A stretch of DNA of 64,000 nucleotides from Demequina sp. NBRC 110052 (GTDB lineage: Bacteria > Actinomycetota > Actinomycetes > Actinomycetales > Demequinaceae): NCBI RefSeq assembly GCF_002090075.1, contig NZ_BBRI01000004.1, positions 186,001-250,000 of the forward strand, given 5' to 3'. The position numbers were made by a program, and so were the translations under genes. Shown here piece after piece: positions 17,273 through 23,945 of this stretch. Positions within the stretch are counted from its first letter, which is position 1; each line of letters opens with the position of its first letter. The notes under the pieces were generated by a model, which had not been told where the DNA came from, searched no databases, and worked only from the letters and a program-made list of their open reading frames with translations.

Positions 17273-17662
17273 ATGCCGCTGTCGGAGTACGAGCAGCGCG
17301 TTCTCGAGCAGCTCGAGCGCGATCTCGGCAGCGACCCTCAGCTCGGCCGTGCGATGAAGCGCGGTCCGCGTCCGCGGGCGCGCATCGCCGTCGGCGCCCT
17401 GGGCGTGCTGGTTGGTCTGGGCGTGGTGGTCATCGGCGCCGTCTCGCAGATGCTGTGGCTCGGTGTGCTCGGCTTCGCCGTCATGATCGGCGTGGCGCTG
17501 TGGGCGCTCCTCGCTCCCGCGCCCACCCAGGGAGCCGCGAAGGGCTCCTCGAAGGGCGACGGCCCGCGCGGAGGCAAGTCCGCGCGCCGCAAGGACGAGC
17601 GGTCCTTCATGCAGAGGCTCGAGGAGCGCTACGAGCGCCGCCGCGAGCAGGGCGATCTCTGA
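17273..17662 (+). CDS. DUF3040 membrane protein
   Basis: 129-residue protein of the actinobacterial DUF3040 family. It begins with the diagnostic MPLSEYEQRVLEQLERDL amphipathic helix, followed by two membrane segments (about residues 43-60 and 64-83) and a cytoplasmic basic tail with KDERSFMQRLEERYERR. Function unknown; in many actinobacteria the family lies beside the dcw cluster, as here. AAGGAGG is well spaced before the ATG. Converges with the transglutaminase gene. Confidence 0.9.
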   Translation: MPLSEYEQRVLEQLERDLGSDPQLGRAMKRGPRPRARIAVGALGVLVGLGVVVIGAVSQMLWLGVLGFAVMIGVALWALLAPAPTQGAAKGSSKGDGPRGGKSARRKDERSFMQRLEERYERRREQGDL

Positions 17663-17727: not shown

Positions 17728-19890
17728 TCAACGCTGCGGGCGCTGGCGCACGTCGCTGAGCACCGCATCCACATCGCCCTCGAGCGCTGTGACGTCTCCA
17801 CGGAACCCCTCGGGCAGGTAGCGCTCCTCGACGATCGCCGTGACGAGCGCCATGAGGCTCGCATCCGCTCCGTCAGTGAGGGGCGACCCCGCCTCCGCAG
17901 CGCTCATGCGCACGTGCGTCGCCGCTTCGTACGGCGTCATCGCGTCGGGCCATCGCCACGGCTCTGGCAGTCCCGCTCGCAGGCGTGACCAGGCGCCCTC
18001 GACCGGCGTGACGTGGGCAGTCCCAGCGCGTCGGTCGCGCCGCACGGTGAGCCACACGACGAGCGCGGCAGCGCCGGCGAGCCCGCCGAGCAGGAGGACC
18101 CAGACGAACGGCGAGCCTCCCGATGCGCCCCCTGCCTCACCCGTCGGCGTGGTCGCGGTGGGGGTGGGCGTCGCCGGTGCGCTCACGGTCGCGGAGGGGG
18201 TCGCGCTCGCACTGGGCTCGGAGGATGGCTCGGCCGTCGCGGTGGGGGACGGCTCGGAGCCGTCGTCGCCGCTGCCGGCGGAGTACTCCGGCGGCGCGCC
18301 GGTCTGCACGGCGGGCGTCGGTTCGAAGCGCACCCAGCCGGTGCCGGGGAAGTACAGCTCGGGCCACGCGTGGGCGTTGCCGCCAACCACGGTGTACAGG
18401 CCGTCGGGGTCGCGCGAGCCGCCCAGGAAGCCGACGCCGATGCGCGCCGGGATGTCCATGAGGCGCGCCATCATGACCATGGTGGTCGCGAACTGCTGGC
18501 AGTAGCCGCGCCGGCTGTCGAGGAAGGCGCTGACTGCGTCGCCTCCGGTGAGGACCGCGGAGGTGTCGTACACGAACTCGGTCGGGTCGCGCAGGTACTG
18601 CTGCAGCGCCACGGCGATCTCATACCGCGACGTCGCAGACGCGTCCGCAGCGATCTGGCGTGCGAGGGCTCCGACGCGGTCGGAATCGAGCGCGTCGGGC
18701 ACCCGGAGGTACTCGTCGCCCGGGTCCTCGCCCGACGCGGCGGCGAGGCGCTCGGCGGAGATCCAGTCGGCGGCGTAGACGAGCGAGTAGGACAGCCCTG
18801 CGGTGCTCGAGTTCGCGCTGCGCACCTCGTCGTACGTGCCGTCGTAGCGCCACGTGTCGTCGACGTCGACCGTGCGTGGCACGGTCGTGATCGGAAGCGC
18901 GGTCTCCGCGAGGGTGTCGATCGAGATCTCGACCGAGTCGAGCGTCGCGGTGTCCCACCCTTCGGCGACCGAGGGCCACAGCACGCCGAGGTCCGCCGGT
19001 CCGCCGGCGACATCGCCGCGGTCGCGGTTCCACTCGGCGCCGGTGAACTCGGTGGCGGTGTAGAGCCGCAGCACGTCGACGTGCTCGCCGGTGGTCGTGT
19101 AAGTGAGCACGCGCGAGGACGACTGCGAGGTCAGCGCGTCACGCAGGTCCAAGTTGAGGTTGAGCCTCGTCGCGCTGCCGTCCGACGGCCCTTGGGCGCG
19201 GGGCAGGGCGCCCCATCCCGGCATGTGCGGGGCGAGCGGCGCGACGAGGGCGGCCAGGCCGACGATCGCCGCCGCGGCCGGCAACCATGCGGTGGCGGGC
19301 GGGACTCGCGACACGTCGGCATGATCCGAGGTCAGCGCCATGATCGCCAGCCAGATCGCCAGCACGCCGAGCAACGCGGCGACGGGCGCGTCGAACGGGA
19401 TGAGCGCCGCAGGGAGCCACGGGAGCAGCAAGGGCGCGCCCGCCATGCCTGCAGCGCGCCACGCCACGGCGAGATGCTCCGCGACGAGGAACACGATCAG
19501 TACCAGCACGGTGACCACGGCGCGCACGCCGTCGGTCGCGTCGAGGGGCACCGGGGCGAACAGCACATCCTGGATGCCGTTGTCGAGCACGCGCCACACG
19601 GAGCGCAACGCGGCGGGCGTGGGCAGGACGCTCCCGAGACCGCTCGTCTGCGCATAGGTCGAGACGACGAGCAGTACGGCCACGACGAGTCCGACGAGCG
19701 TCGGGATCACGCGAGACCGGGTCATGGCGCGCGCGACGGTGACCGCGGCCGCGACGGCGGCGAGCGCGAGCGCGGCGCCCAGCCACACGTCCGTCATGTC
19801 GATCGGAGTCGAGTACGCGGCGAGCGGTCCGGCGCTCGCGAGCGCGACCGCGGGCGTGGCCTGCCAGGAGGGCCTGCGACGCTCGCTCAC
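17728..19890 (-). CDS. Membrane transglutaminase-like protein (TgpA family)
   Basis: 720-residue protein. About six N-terminal membrane helices (residues 1-200) are followed by an outside domain and a transglutaminase core: catalytic Cys in RRGYCQQFATTMVMMARLM, His in GGNAHAWPELYFPG, and FEPTP in the position of the third residue. A Ser/Thr/Pro/Ala-rich linker, another membrane helix (FVWVLLLGGLAGAAALVVWL) and a DUF4129-like cytoplasmic tail complete it. GTG at 19890 overlaps the stop of the DUF58 gene (GTGA), so it is the third gene of a MoxR - DUF58 - transglutaminase operon. Substrate unknown; TgpA in Pseudomonas is essential. Confidence 0.88.
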   Translation of the reverse strand: MSERRRPSWQATPAVALASAGPLAAYSTPIDMTDVWLGAALALAAVAAAVTVARAMTRSRVIPTLVGLVVAVLLVVSTYAQTSGLGSVLPTPAALRSVWRVLDNGIQDVLFAPVPLDATDGVRAVVTVLVLIVFLVAEHLAVAWRAAGMAGAPLLLPWLPAALIPFDAPVAALLGVLAIWLAIMALTSDHADVSRVPPATAWLPAAAAIVGLAALVAPLAPHMPGWGALPRAQGPSDGSATRLNLNLDLRDALTSQSSSRVLTYTTTGEHVDVLRLYTATEFTGAEWNRDRGDVAGGPADLGVLWPSVAEGWDTATLDSVEISIDTLAETALPITTVPRTVDVDDTWRYDGTYDEVRSANSSTAGLSYSLVYAADWISAERLAAASGEDPGDEYLRVPDALDSDRVGALARQIAADASATSRYEIAVALQQYLRDPTEFVYDTSAVLTGGDAVSAFLDSRRGYCQQFATTMVMMARLMDIPARIGVGFLGGSRDPDGLYTVVGGNAHAWPELYFPGTGWVRFEPTPAVQTGAPPEYSAGSGDDGSEPSPTATAEPSSEPSASATPSATVSAPATPTPTATTPTGEAGGASGGSPFVWVLLLGGLAGAAALVVWLTVRRDRRAGTAHVTPVEGAWSRLRAGLPEPWRWPDAMTPYEAATHVRMSAAEAGSPLTDGADASLMALVTAIVEERYLPEGFRGDVTALEGDVDAVLSDVRQRPQR

Positions 19891-21149
19891 GACGCGATTC
19901 CTCTCAGCGCGGCCGACCAGGCTGCGGGGAGGTCGGCGAGCGTGGGCGTGACGCCGACGCGCCATCCGGCCCGTGCGAGACGCGAGACGAGCGCGGCGTC
20001 CTCGCCCACGAGCAGGGCGGTCGTGGTGCCCGCTCCGCCCAGGCCGGCCATCGCGTCGGACGCGTCGGAATCGTCCAGGGTGCGCGGGTTCACGACGGCG
20101 ATCGCGATGCCGCCGCGCGAGACCTCGTGAGCGGCGGTGCGGGCGGCGTCGGCGAGGCGCGCAGGTCCGTCAGGCGTGCTCGCCGTGACCAGCGCGAGCG
20201 CCGTGAGCAGCGCGCTGCGCGACTCCGGCGCCCGCGCGCCGTACTCGCGTGACTCGTCCAGGCCTGCGCCGAGCAGGCGAACGGCGTGCCCGGAGGCGAG
20301 CGACGCGAGGGCCACGGATCCGGCGATCCCGATCGCGTCCTCGGCGGCATCGGGCTCGCCGGCGGCGTCCAGGATGACAGTGACGGAGGGGCGCGACGCG
20401 TGCTCGTCTGCGCGCACCACGAGCTCGCCGCGTCGCGCGGACGACTTCCAATGCACGCGGCGGGGGTCGTCGCCGTGGCGGTACTCGCGGAGCGCCGCGT
20501 CATCGGTCGCGGGGCTGGTGGCGCCGCGCAGCGATCGGTCGGAGCCCGCGAGAGCCGCGCCGCGGTCGCGCGACAGATCCACGATGCGTGGCCATACGAC
20601 TGCGTCCTGCTCGGCGCCGATCGGGGTGTCGGCCCACAGCGTGCCGAGCGGATCCGCGACCCTGGCGACGGCGGGCCCGAGCGGCCACGTGCCGCGCGCG
20701 ACGGGGGAGAGCGAGTAGGTCAGGGTGACCCTGCCGGGCTCGCGCAGCACGGTCGCGCTCGTCGAGCCGTCGCCGGTGAGCTCGGAGGCCGCCTGCTCGC
20801 GCACATCGAGACGGGGTACGTGGCGCTGCGAGCGTCGCGACATCACGACCACCTCGACCCGGCCGTCGGCACCTGCTGTGAGCGGGTGGGGCGAGATCGT
20901 GCGCGAGGCGGAGCGGTAGCGGCGACGCATCACTGCGATGCTCGCCTGCAGCCACAGGGCGCCTGCGGCGACGCCGACGACCAGCACGAGCCCGACGACT
21001 ACGACCGTGAGCGACGCCATCCCGATGCCGAGCGCCGTGATGACGAGCCCGCCGGCGATCATGCCGATGCCGCGCGCGGTGAGCACGGTCTCGGTCCTGC
21101 CTGGGCGCGAAGCCTGCGGCGCGGTGGGGGCCGCGTGGGTGCGGGTCAT
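19887..21149 (-). CDS. DUF58 protein with N-terminal membrane helices
   Basis: 420-residue protein. Two adjacent membrane helices (about residues 27-68) precede a region ending in the DUF58 signature LREYRHGDDPRRVHWKSSAR and a von Willebrand A-like fold (VTVILDAAGEP). DUF58 proteins pair with MoxR ATPases and are thought to assemble or activate membrane or metal-dependent complexes. It starts 2 nt after the MoxR stop and overlaps the transglutaminase start, so the three are one operon. Confidence 0.9.
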   Translation of the reverse strand: MTRTHAAPTAPQASRPGRTETVLTARGIGMIAGGLVITALGIGMASLTVVVVGLVLVVGVAAGALWLQASIAVMRRRYRSASRTISPHPLTAGADGRVEVVVMSRRSQRHVPRLDVREQAASELTGDGSTSATVLREPGRVTLTYSLSPVARGTWPLGPAVARVADPLGTLWADTPIGAEQDAVVWPRIVDLSRDRGAALAGSDRSLRGATSPATDDAALREYRHGDDPRRVHWKSSARRGELVVRADEHASRPSVTVILDAAGEPDAAEDAIGIAGSVALASLASGHAVRLLGAGLDESREYGARAPESRSALLTALALVTASTPDGPARLADAARTAAHEVSRGGIAIAVVNPRTLDDSDASDAMAGLGGAGTTTALLVGEDAALVSRLARAGWRVGVTPTLADLPAAWSAALRGIAS

Positions 21150-21151
21150 GC

Positions 21152-22159
21152 TCAGCGGCGGCCCTCCGCGCGGCTGGGGGCCGCGTTCCTGGCCTCGGTC
21201 GGCACTGCGGTGCGGGCGACGATCGCGTTCAGGATCCGCGAGGAGTCCTGGCCCGCGAGCCGCGCCTCTGCCGAGGACACGAGCCGGTGCGCGAGGACGG
21301 GAAGTGCGAGCGCCTTCACGTCGTCGGGCAGCACGTGGTTGCGTCCGGCCATGGCGGCACGTGCCTTGGTCGCCTCGAGCAGCTGCAGCGAGGCGCGCGG
21401 CGAGGCGCCCAGGCGCAGCCCCGGGTCGGTGCGCGTGGCGTTCGCGAGGTCGACGATGTACTGCTTGATCGCAGGCGCCGCGTAGACGCGGCGGGCCACA
21501 TTCACGTGGCGCAGGAGTGTCGCAGTGTCGGTGACGGGGCGCACGTCCTCGAGCGGGTCGGCGCCGTCGTGCGTGTCGAGCATCGCGATCTCGTCGTGAG
21601 GGGCCGGATACCCGACTGACAGCTGCGTCATGAAGCGATCGCGCTGCGCCTCGGGGAGAGGGTAGGTGCCTTCCATCTCCACGGGGTTCTGGGTCGCGAC
21701 GACGATGAACGGCTCCGGCAGGCGGTGCGTGGTGCCGTCGACGGTGACGCGGCGCTCCTGCATCGACTCGAGCAGCGCGGCCTGCGTCTTGGGGGAGGCG
21801 CGGTTGATCTCGTCGGCGATGACCACCTGGGCGAAGATCGGGCCCGGCCGGAAGTCGAAGCGGTGCTCGTCCGTGCGGTAGACGCTGACCCCGGTGACGT
21901 CCGAGGGCAGCAGGTCTGGCGTGAACTGGATCCGGCCCACGGTCGAGTCGATGGAGGCTGCCAGCGCACGCGCGAGGGTGGTCTTGCCGACTCCGGGCAC
22001 GTCCTCCATGAGCAGGTGTCCCCGCGCCAGCACGGTCGCGAGAGCGGCGTCGACTGCGGCGCCGAGGCCAGACAGTGCAGTGCCGACGGACTCGCGCACC
22101 TGGGATGTCGTCTCGGCGACTTCGTCGAGCTCTGCCCCCGTGGGGATGGCGTGACCCAT
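21152..22159 (-). CDS. MoxR-type AAA+ ATPase
   Basis: 335-residue AAA+ chaperone of the MoxR group: Walker A DVPGVGKTTLARALA, Walker B VVIADEINRASPKTQ, sensor 1 FIVVATQNPVEMEGTYPLPEAQ, and a C-terminal lid with DPGLRLGASPRASLQLL. MoxR proteins act with vWA/DUF58 partners in complex assembly. I start at ATG 22159, which has GAGGAGGAG upstream. An open frame continues to 22585 across the shared promoter region and is not coding. Divergent from mraZ; its promoter region carries MraZ-like repeats. Confidence 0.93.
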   Translation of the reverse strand: MGHAIPTGAELDEVAETTSQVRESVGTALSGLGAAVDAALATVLARGHLLMEDVPGVGKTTLARALAASIDSTVGRIQFTPDLLPSDVTGVSVYRTDEHRFDFRPGPIFAQVVIADEINRASPKTQAALLESMQERRVTVDGTTHRLPEPFIVVATQNPVEMEGTYPLPEAQRDRFMTQLSVGYPAPHDEIAMLDTHDGADPLEDVRPVTDTATLLRHVNVARRVYAAPAIKQYIVDLANATRTDPGLRLGASPRASLQLLEATKARAAMAGRNHVLPDDVKALALPVLAHRLVSSAEARLAGQDSSRILNAIVARTAVPTEARNAAPSRAEGRR

Positions 22160-22187
22160 GGACTCCTCCTCATGACTTCCGCGTCCG

Positions 22188-22236
22188 AGCCTAGACGATG
22201 CTGTGGTGCATCGCAGGTCCCTCCACTTCATTTCAC
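22188..22236 (-). promoter_or_regulatory. moxR promoter with two MraZ-like repeats
   Basis: On the minus strand, GTGAAA (22236-22231) and GTGGAG (22226-22221) occur 10 bp apart, the same period as the mraZ operator. They end about 27 bp upstream of a TAGGCT -10 (22193-22188). GTGGAGGGA is shared exactly with the mraZ side. Binding by MraZ is inferred. Confidence 0.45.
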
Positions 22237-22258
22237 GCGTCTTACCAGGATTGATGGC

Positions 22259-22321
22259 TTGATTCGGGACGAATTTCGCCAGAATCTCCCTCTTCGTGGA
22301 GGGAAGTGGAGTAAAGTGGGG
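22259..22321 (+). promoter_or_regulatory. mraZ (dcw) promoter and triple MraZ box
   Basis: TTGATT (22259-22264), 17 nt, GAATCT (22282-22287) form a possible promoter. Just downstream are three direct repeats spaced exactly 10 bp: GTGGAG at 22296, GTGGAG at 22306 and GTGGGG at 22316. MraZ is known to bind such short G-rich direct repeats with about one helical turn spacing upstream of its own gene, so this is the likely autoregulatory operator of the dcw cluster. Confidence 0.7.
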
Positions 22322-22358
22322 CCAACGCTCGATTCGTGGCACGGGGGAGGTGACGGAC

Positions 22359-22826
22359 GTGACTGAGGCTGCGGCGCATGGCCTGGGCCCCACGGGGGTG
22401 CTCCTGGGCACGTTCATGCCGCGCCTCGACGACAAGGGGCGGCTGATCCTCCCGGCGAAGTTCCGCGGGCGTCTCGCGTCCGGCCTCGTCGCCACGCGCG
22501 GCCTGGACCGCTGCATCTTCGTGTTCCCCATCGACGAGTTCACCGAGGTGCACAACCGTCTGCGCAAGGCGCCGCTCGAGAACAAGGGCGCGCGCGACTA
22601 TCTGCGCAGCTTCCTCGCGTACGCGCAGGACGACATCCCTGACAAGCAGGGCCGCGTGCTGCTGTCGCAGCCCCTGCGCAAGTACGCGGGCATCGACCGC
22701 GAGGTCGCGGTCGTCGGCATGGGCTCGCGCGTCGAGATCTGGGACGTCGAGGCCTGGGAGGCCTACCTGGAGGCGGGCGAGGAGGCGTACGCGCAGACGG
22801 CGGCCGAGGTGTTCGACGACATGTAG
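22359..22826 (+). CDS. mraZ: Transcriptional regulator MraZ
   Basis: AbrB-like DNA-binding regulator at the head of the dcw cluster. The 155-residue protein has two MraZ repeats: LGTFMPRLDDKGRLILPAKFR, then LAYAQDDIPDKQGRVLLSQPLRKYAG, with DRCIFVFP between them. I start at GTG 22359, which has GGGGGAGG 8 nt upstream. This adds about 12 residues before the usual family N-terminus; a GTG at 22396 would start exactly at the domain but lacks a ribosome site. A 130-bp gap separates it from rsmH. Confidence 0.93.
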   Translation: MTEAAAHGLGPTGVLLGTFMPRLDDKGRLILPAKFRGRLASGLVATRGLDRCIFVFPIDEFTEVHNRLRKAPLENKGARDYLRSFLAYAQDDIPDKQGRVLLSQPLRKYAGIDREVAVVGMGSRVEIWDVEAWEAYLEAGEEAYAQTAAEVFDDM

Positions 22827-22955: not shown

Positions 22956-23945
22956 ATGGAGAAGGACACAGCGAGCCGCCACCGGCCGGTGATGCTGGAC
23001 CGCTGCGTGGACCTCCTCGCGCCCGCCCTCACCCGCCCTGGCGCGGTCGCAATCGACGGCACGCTCGGCATGGGAGGGCACACCGAGGCCCTCCTCGAGC
23101 GTTGCCCTGAGGCGCGCGTGGTCGGCATCGATCGGGATGCGCAGGCGATCGCTCTCGCCTCGGAGCGCCTCGCGCGCTTCGGGGACAGGTTCGTCGCGCA
23201 CCACGCCACCTACGACGACATCGCGGGCGCGCTCGCCGAGGTCGACGCGGAGGCTGCCGACGGCATCCTCCTGGACCTGGGCGTCAGCTCGCTTCAGATC
23301 GACGAGGCGGAGCGCGGCTTCTCGTACGCGCAGGACGCCCCGCTCGACATGCGCATGGACCGGTCCGAGCCCGTCACGGCCGCCGACCTGCTGCGTGACG
23401 CCGACGAGCGCGAGCTCGCGCGCATCCTGCGCGTGTACGGCGAGGAGCGGTTCGCGCCGCGCATCGCCCGCGCGATCGTGCGCCGGCGCGATAGTGAGCC
23501 GCTCAGCCGCTCCACCGAGCTCGCCGAGCTGGTGCTCGAGGCCATGCCCGCAGCCGCGCGTCACGCGCCCGGCGGTCACCCGGCCAAGAGGACATTCCAG
23601 GCGCTGCGCATCGCCGTCAACCGTGAGCTCGAGGTGCTCGAGCGCGCGATCCCCGCGGCGATCGACGCGACCGCGGTGGGCGGACGCATCGTCGTCATGA
23701 GCTACCACTCGCTCGAGGACCGTCTCGTCAAGCACGCGTTCGCCGAGGGCGCCGAGGTCGACGCGCCTCCTGGCCTGCCCGTGATCCCCGACGACGCGCA
23801 GCCCTACCTGCGCCTGCTCACCCGCGGGGCGGAGAAGGCCTCGGAGGACGAGGCTCTCGCCAACCCCAGGTCCAAGCCCGTACGCCTGCGCGCCGCCGAG
23901 CGCGTGCGCCCCACCCCCGCGTCTCGCGCAAGGAGAGCCGCATGA
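22956..23945 (+). CDS. rsmH: 16S rRNA (cytosine-1402-N4) methyltransferase RsmH
   Basis: Class I SAM methyltransferase for C1402 of 16S rRNA, 329 residues. Motifs: [13 protein letters not shown] at the N-terminus, the SAM site [27 protein letters not shown], the [12 protein letters not shown] catalytic region, the [14 protein letters not shown] substrate loop, and [16 protein letters not shown] near the C-terminus. ATG with GGGAGGG upstream. Its stop overlaps the ATG of the ftsL-like gene, marking the start of a tightly coupled run. Confidence 0.96.

Follow-up and report, generated by a model that had tools for sequence, protein, structure and literature searches.

The gene of MraZ, a very widely conserved bacterial regulator, faces away from a moxR operon in a 64,000-nucleotide stretch of the genome of Demequina sp. 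NBRC 110052 (contig NZ_BBRI01000004.1, positions 186,001 to 250,000; hereafter the window), and the DNA between the two genes carries MraZ-like boxes on both strands (Table 1). The original prediction took these boxes for an operator facing both ways, with which MraZ might control not only its own cluster but also the divergent operon for a MoxR ATPase, a DUF58 protein and a transglutaminase. This raises the question of which gene the minus-strand boxes serve, and of how far they belong with the boxes at the mraZ promoter.

The mraZ promoter and its predicted operator

The product of mraZ belongs to the MraZ family by its match to PF02381, which reaches 102.9 bits against a Pfam cut-off of 23 and lies in two stretches, and its structure model (mean pLDDT 60.7) matches the MraZ structures 1n0e, 9qlg and 9sz7 (for 1n0e, Z 16.3 and rmsd 2.7 with 130 aligned residues). 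The window is Demequina-like, its nearest named mraZ loci being those of Demequina with 92-93% protein identity. The DUF3040 gene is a frequent neighbour of mraZ: in the window the moxR operon stands between the two, and in three other loci (L091, L114, L124) the DUF3040 gene comes after a gene for a DinB-type polymerase.

Table 1. Genes and regulatory features around the mraZ promoter, in window coordinates
Feature	Position	Strand	Remarks
DUF3040 gene	17273..17662	+	PF11239; beyond the transglutaminase gene
TgpA-like transglutaminase gene	17728..19965	-	PF11992 + PF01841
DUF58 protein gene	19887..21149	-	PF01882
moxR (AAA_3 ATPase)	21152..22159	-	PF07726, E 3.5e-64; divergent from mraZ
Candidate moxR -10, TAGGCT	22193-22188	-	
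Distal outer box GTGGAG, inverted	22221..22226 (22226-22221)	-	read directly; 75 bp upstream of the proximal array
Distal inner box GTGAAA, degenerate	22231..22236 (22236-22231)	-	GTGGRG in many relatives
TTACCAG, local form of the TGACCTG motif	22242..22248	+	
Proximal operator (predicted MraZ-type), three boxes	22296..22321	+	direct reading of the sequence
Proximal box 1, GTGGAG	22296-22301	+	
Proximal box 2, GTGGAG	22306-22311	+	
Predicted mraZ -10, TAAAGT	22312..22317	+	inferred; between box 2 and box 3
Proximal box 3, GTGGGG	22316-22321	+	
mraZ	22359..22826	+	GTG start at 22359; PF02381, E 9.1e-30
mraW	22956-23945	+	

The three GTGGRG boxes announced for the mraZ side are indeed there, as direct repeats with a GTG core and a period of exactly 10 bp; they overlap the predicted mraZ -10, and the array ends 37 bp before the GTG start. 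In some relatives (L115, L119, L147, L149) a clear -35 of the form TTGACN directly precedes box 1 with a spacer of 17 bp, so that the spacer is taken up by the first two boxes and the third lies over the -10; the -35 of Demequina mraZ promoters is weak or absent. The proximal boxes would thus stand where a repressor is expected. In the named-locus comparison every one of the 81 promoters has this triple with a score of 17 or 18 of 18, which supports its assignment, from sequence, as a canonical MraZ-type operator. The 2.6-Mb genome contains six exact matches to GTGGRG N4 GTGGRG, two of them within the mraZ triple, one for each of its halves; with one mismatch allowed, 81 places were found in the whole genome against 123 for the backwards control, so that the pattern is not enriched and no further target is named.

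Inverted boxes and the TGACCTG motif in the window

The minus-strand boxes are also present as predicted, 10 bp apart and facing moxR, some 33 bp upstream of its candidate -10, and the 9-mer GTGGAGGGA is identical on both sides (22296-22304 on the plus strand, 22226-22218 on the minus strand). The pair scores 10 of 12. When the 350 bp preceding each of 13 other moxR genes were shuffled by mononucleotides, 66 of 650 shuffles also gave a best pair of at least 10, so that in this genome alone the pair does not stand clearly beyond chance; its significance comes from its conservation in relatives. The inner box varies within Demequina, where it is often degenerate, and is better preserved in other families; L036 and L069 are examples of relatives in which both distal boxes are intact.

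Beside the boxes lies TTACCAG, and in 31 of the 36 Demequina-group loci such a motif has its ACC 52-53 bp ahead of the array. Inverted pair and motif were also scored together, as a strict composite of the inverted box pair plus TGACCWG that had to match 17 or more of 19 letters at a distance of 30-190 bp on the upstream side of the array. The window reaches 16 and just misses the threshold, one of its two distal boxes being intact; it thus holds a worn form of an element that other families have in a sharper form.

Two other readings of the motif were discarded. By the grammar of the boxes TGACCTG is not a third distal one: its minus strand offers no GTG core, and in the 81 main composites the motif starts 11-12 bp from the inner box, where a further box would start at 10. 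Nor does it appear to form a divergent minus-strand promoter with the distal boxes: no suitably spaced TANNNT was found by eye in the printed sequences. A scan of 21900-22700 for the sigma-70 consensus on both strands returned no promoter, that of mraZ included, and is uninformative. The distances of TGACCTG to the inner box (sd 0.49) and to the array (sd 0.60) are about equally steady, and the motif is therefore not assignable to the boxes or to the array specifically.

Sampling and conservation of the distal element

The comparison covers 80 mraZ loci from named genomes, of which L031-L065 are from Demequina or near relatives and L066-L110 from other families, and a wider sampling to the order and then the class, giving 274 usable mraZ promoters. 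The loci L001-L030, L181-L210, L282-L286 (repeat loci), L287-L288 and L362-L372 stand outside all analyses. The sample is weighted to close relatives, and all counts below take this kinship as it is. A looser class-wide pattern matched 108 of 196 genomes with controls of similar order and was excluded from the counts.

Conservation of both arrays, which the original prediction had named as a check, is found in the named loci: the proximal triple is general (see above), and of the 36 Demequina-group promoters, window included, 35 have the distal outer box, taken as the best TCCCTCCAC-type match, at 75-77 bp from the proximal array, a steadiness that is partly built in by searches restricted to 60-100 or 70-92 bp. 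The refuting outcome named in the original prediction, moxR-side repeats that are not conserved, thus did not occur. One automatic distance of 66 (L056) comes from the picking of the second box. In Cellulomonadaceae and others the full pair, CYCCAC N4 CYCCAC on the plus strand, is mostly 76-78 bp upstream, with TGACCTG at 55-56. For the group as a whole, the distal boxes combine the grammar of the proximal ones with inverted orientation and a near-constant distance.

The strict composite is present in 89 of the 270 Actinomycetes mraZ promoters with enough upstream DNA and absent from the other 181 (L147, L222, L252 and L323, with less than 190 bp upstream, were left out). Dinucleotide shuffles gave a mean of 0.15 composites and a maximum of 1, the opposite strand gave none, and a flank window further upstream gave 0 of 268. 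By group, the composite is found in 6 of 36 promoters of the Demequina group, in 32 of the 45 named loci outside it and in 52 of the 193 remaining loci; the total of 90 exceeds the above count by one locus too short for the 270-promoter set. The table of composite distances leaves out L118 and L161, which are devoid of a usable mraZ promoter. Distal boxes are absent from two close relatives (L064, L137).

Letters outside the selection bear on the identity of the reader. Of 85 distinct distal sites, 45 have AA before the outer GTGG, and AA stands before proximal box 2 in 55 of 78 cases, about 3% being expected for each; at the two places before GTGG an A is found in 61% and 67% of distal and 74% and 79% of proximal sites, against a background of 14-17%. 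The distal spacer letters thus follow the proximal ones, which argues that MraZ reads both sites.

Several loci deviate from this scheme. Extra direct GTGGGG-like boxes lie upstream of the array in family f35 (L180, L217, L337-L341) and perhaps in f33 (L225, L232, L255), and to judge by their sequence they possibly replace the inverted distal pair. Other loci (L140, L142, L143, L241, L243, L279, from families f17, f19 and f6) have the distal pair without TGACCTG and with another stretch after the pair, often ATTYC...GGAAA. At least three inverted distal boxes stand in tandem in L170 and L244.

Spacing and helical phase

In 81 of the 90 strict composites TGACC lies 54-56 bp before the array. 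The other nine are displaced, to 45, 65, 66, 76, 77, 78 and 108 bp (the last three times, two of them from one genus). Taken as eight lineages (45, 65, 66, 76, 77, 78, 108 and 108), their distances keep the helical phase of the usual 55, with 10.5 bp per turn (R 0.92; simulated p 2e-5 for these eight, relative to spacings drawn evenly from 40-120). In L167, L177, L244 and L347 box 1 still directly follows the -35, so that it is the DNA separating the two sites that has changed in length, and no box has been added. Loci of f35 and f39 with TGACC and a poor pair show distances such as 100 or 113, which are out of phase. The phasing rests only on the strict composite: an earlier, looser table gave distal distances near 88, 99 and 110, and was excluded because the 10-bp period of the boxes can itself fake such steps. 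Spacing shifts by whole turns would fit a bridged or looped complex.

Association of the element with mraZ or moxR

The original prediction made the minus-strand boxes a second MraZ operator, for the divergent moxR-DUF58-transglutaminase operon, which would join this operon to the division regulon. The direction of the boxes and their closeness to the candidate moxR -10 in the window speak for it, as does the frequency of the neighbourhood, since a divergent moxR adjoins mraZ in 171 of the 268 loci with enough upstream DNA (of the 274, L147, L222, L252, L323, L080 and L336 have less than 1000 bp upstream and were left out). Among these 268 loci, the composite occurs with moxR in 66 and without it in 22, and is absent from 105 with and 75 without moxR, an odds ratio of 2.1 with p 0.01, uncorrected for relatedness. 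Relatedness may itself explain this association, many Cellulomonadaceae carrying both.

The spacing points the other way. In the 32 Demequina-group loci having AGCCTA together with the distal box, their separation is 31-41 or 67-80 bp and thus not constant, whereas the distance to the mraZ array stays as given above. In 75 loci that have both a good pair and a divergent moxR, 75-89 bp separate the pair from the mraZ boxes (the search covered 70-92 only) but 56-2119 bp separate it from the moxR start, and in the named loci the moxR start is 193-583 bp from mraZ. The element also persists without moxR: at 22 loci that carry the strict composite there is none in the upstream DNA available (1.2 to 6 kb). 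An upstream DUF3040 gene co-directional with mraZ is present at 15 of them and was not found at the other 7. L049, a near Demequina relative devoid of moxR, also keeps the distal pair, at 75 bp with 11 of 12 letters. Conversely, a divergent moxR is found without the distal element in L137 and in sampled members of f30, f31, f33 and f41; L064 has neither composite nor moxR.

Thirteen genomes with moxR located elsewhere were also considered, taking in each the best moxR match that is followed by a DUF58 gene. None of the 13 genes has an exact box pair in its 350 bp upstream, and on the same strand their best pairs score 7-10 of 12, a level that shuffles reach too; since the window's own pair also scores 10, this excludes a good site and leaves room for a worn one. 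These genes have 42-61% identity to the moxR of the window, and some may be false counterparts.

Genomes without mraZ provide the complementary case. MraZ had no match in any of the 7 sampled genomes of one large-genome genus (f34 g108). Six genomes of this genus without mraZ retain the divergent moxR, and their mraW promoter keeps TAAAGT (6 of 6) and TTGACC (5 of 6); at the promoter position the array scores 11-14 of 18, the best distal pair 6-9 of 12 and the composite 10-13 of 19. No TGACCWG occurs within 190 bp in these six, one of which (L214) has a match further away. L137 belongs to another genus of the same family. A relic, GTGGACTAAAGT, is seen at the mraW promoter in all six (L211-L216), and GTGAGNTAACCCACA lies upstream of mraW in L211, L214, L215 and L216, with one-letter variants in the other two. 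In two genomes of f14 (G014, G032), rated 99% complete, neither MraZ nor MraW was found; these assemblies comprise 500 and 1060 contigs, and the sequence is possibly missing.

Despite the weak positive association with moxR, the presence of the element follows mraZ and not moxR. The drifting spacing, the element without moxR, the 13 moxR genes elsewhere and the six genomes without mraZ all argue against control of the moxR operon through these boxes, which we now regard as very improbable. Of the operator facing both ways, what holds is the MraZ-type operator at mraZ and the conserved MraZ-like boxes on the minus strand; their service to moxR is not supported. As far as sequence comparison can tell, the distal boxes are real and old, and it is mraZ, rather than moxR, to which the evidence ties them. 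In this lineage they may still affect moxR incidentally, lying as they do so close upstream of its putative -10.

Discussion

Based on the comparisons presented here, mraZ and the division cluster probably have a composite operator in the region upstream of mraZ, where the distal pair would serve the mraZ promoter as an auxiliary MraZ operator in inverted orientation. The distal boxes are conserved, inverted and regularly spaced, they have the box grammar of the proximal array, and their presence tracks mraZ; that MraZ occupies and bridges them is what we infer from these features. In this scheme MraZ would bind the three proximal boxes, in the spacer and over the -10, and repress its own transcription. 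At 75-78 bp upstream, the inverted distal boxes would give this promoter another MraZ site, on the same face of the DNA, and one MraZ ring, or two touching rings, could hold both sites with the DNA between them bent or looped. Such a hold may deepen repression or else poise the promoter. The TGACCTG motif beside the distal boxes would form a further part of the unit, with a second protein as partner, and moxR would be no more than its current neighbour. More tentatively, and with slightly less than even confidence, we propose that such a two-site MraZ operator governs the division cluster across much of the Actinomycetes: one ring, or two in contact, would sit on the three boxes and also on the inverted pair, which lies about seven helical turns further upstream, and together with another protein at TGACCTG would close a small DNA loop; this geometry would have been kept for a very long time while the neighbouring genes changed, and would be rebuilt in whole turns whenever the intervening DNA lengthens or shortens.

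Part of this evidence could be read differently. The two MraZ sites may be independent and make no contact, the distal pair either raising the local concentration of MraZ or insulating mraZ from upstream transcription. This would suit the many lineages that manage without a distal pair and the DUF3040-type genes that run towards mraZ at loci without moxR, but the constant inverted orientation, the near-constant distance and the helical phase of the displaced copies speak against it, and we consider it unlikely. It is quite unlikely, in our judgement, that the distal element primarily binds a different regulator, of TGACCTG or of both motifs, which would activate or tune mraZ, the likeness to MraZ boxes being secondary. 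TGACCTG does occur at its usual distance without boxes in L160, L175 and L276, and MtrA comes to mind: it is reported at the Dietzia mraZ promoter in the excerpted text of PMC9602371, and that of PMC2945938 describes a decrease of mraZ expression on mtrA inhibition in M. smegmatis. MtrA was thus considered as a candidate binder of TGACCTG, the published accounts, as excerpted, printing no motif for comparison. Against such a regulator stand the distal boxes themselves, which repeat the proximal grammar in their 10-bp period and spacer letters, and the fact that both motifs are gone from the promoter where mraZ is gone.

The preferred reading, a bridged auxiliary MraZ site, bears on standing questions. 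MraZ forms rings, and the structure comparison made here lists MraZ cryo-EM entries. What the rings do and which targets MraZ has beyond the dcw cluster are long-standing issues, and a deeply conserved, phased second operator would offer a direct and cheap test of whether the ring serves for DNA bridging. The present result also makes a connection of MraZ with the MoxR operon, however tempting, less likely. The TGACCTG motif, in turn, points to a partner that may tune division-gene expression in actinobacteria.

Comparison with known systems

The lac and gal repressors use an auxiliary operator tens of bp away, with a DNA loop and with helical phase preserved. The arrangement proposed here resembles them in having a second operator tens of bp away, with its phase kept among the displaced strict composites; it differs in that MraZ is a ring-forming protein on tandem boxes at 10 bp, and the loop would be deduced from spacing. 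In E. coli, autoregulation of the dcw cluster by MraZ was reportedly described by Eraso et al. in 2014. According to the excerpted text of PMC8475190, MraZ represses its own operon in E. coli and M. genitalium, and that of PMC7761207 gives repression at promoter repeats as established in Burkholderia. To go by the titles of PDB entries, 9sz7 is MraZ with a 4-box promoter DNA and 9r4j is MraZ with natural promoter DNA. No second inverted distal MraZ site was described in the literature searched, whose coverage leaves out most subscription journals.

The E. coli dcw cluster, as cited in the excerpts of PMC8475190 and PMC7761207, has like the present locus repeated boxes upstream of mraZ and a repressor of its own operon; unlike here, a second inverted distal site is not part of these excerpted descriptions. 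The PmraBc promoter of Burkholderia cenocepacia also has repeats near the promoter, which are bound by MraZ and consist of four units of 7 nt with a 3-nt spacer; in the excerpted account (PMC7761207) the promoter-near probe is the one bound, and the repeats lie downstream of the -10, in contrast to those at the Demequina promoter. The Mollicutes operator AAAGTG[T/G] (PMC8475190 and PMC5282649, as excerpted) consists of direct repeats that have a GTG core, a 10-bp period and AA before GTG, as do both sites here; one array is described there, whereas the promoters studied here combine three proximal boxes with an inverted distal pair.
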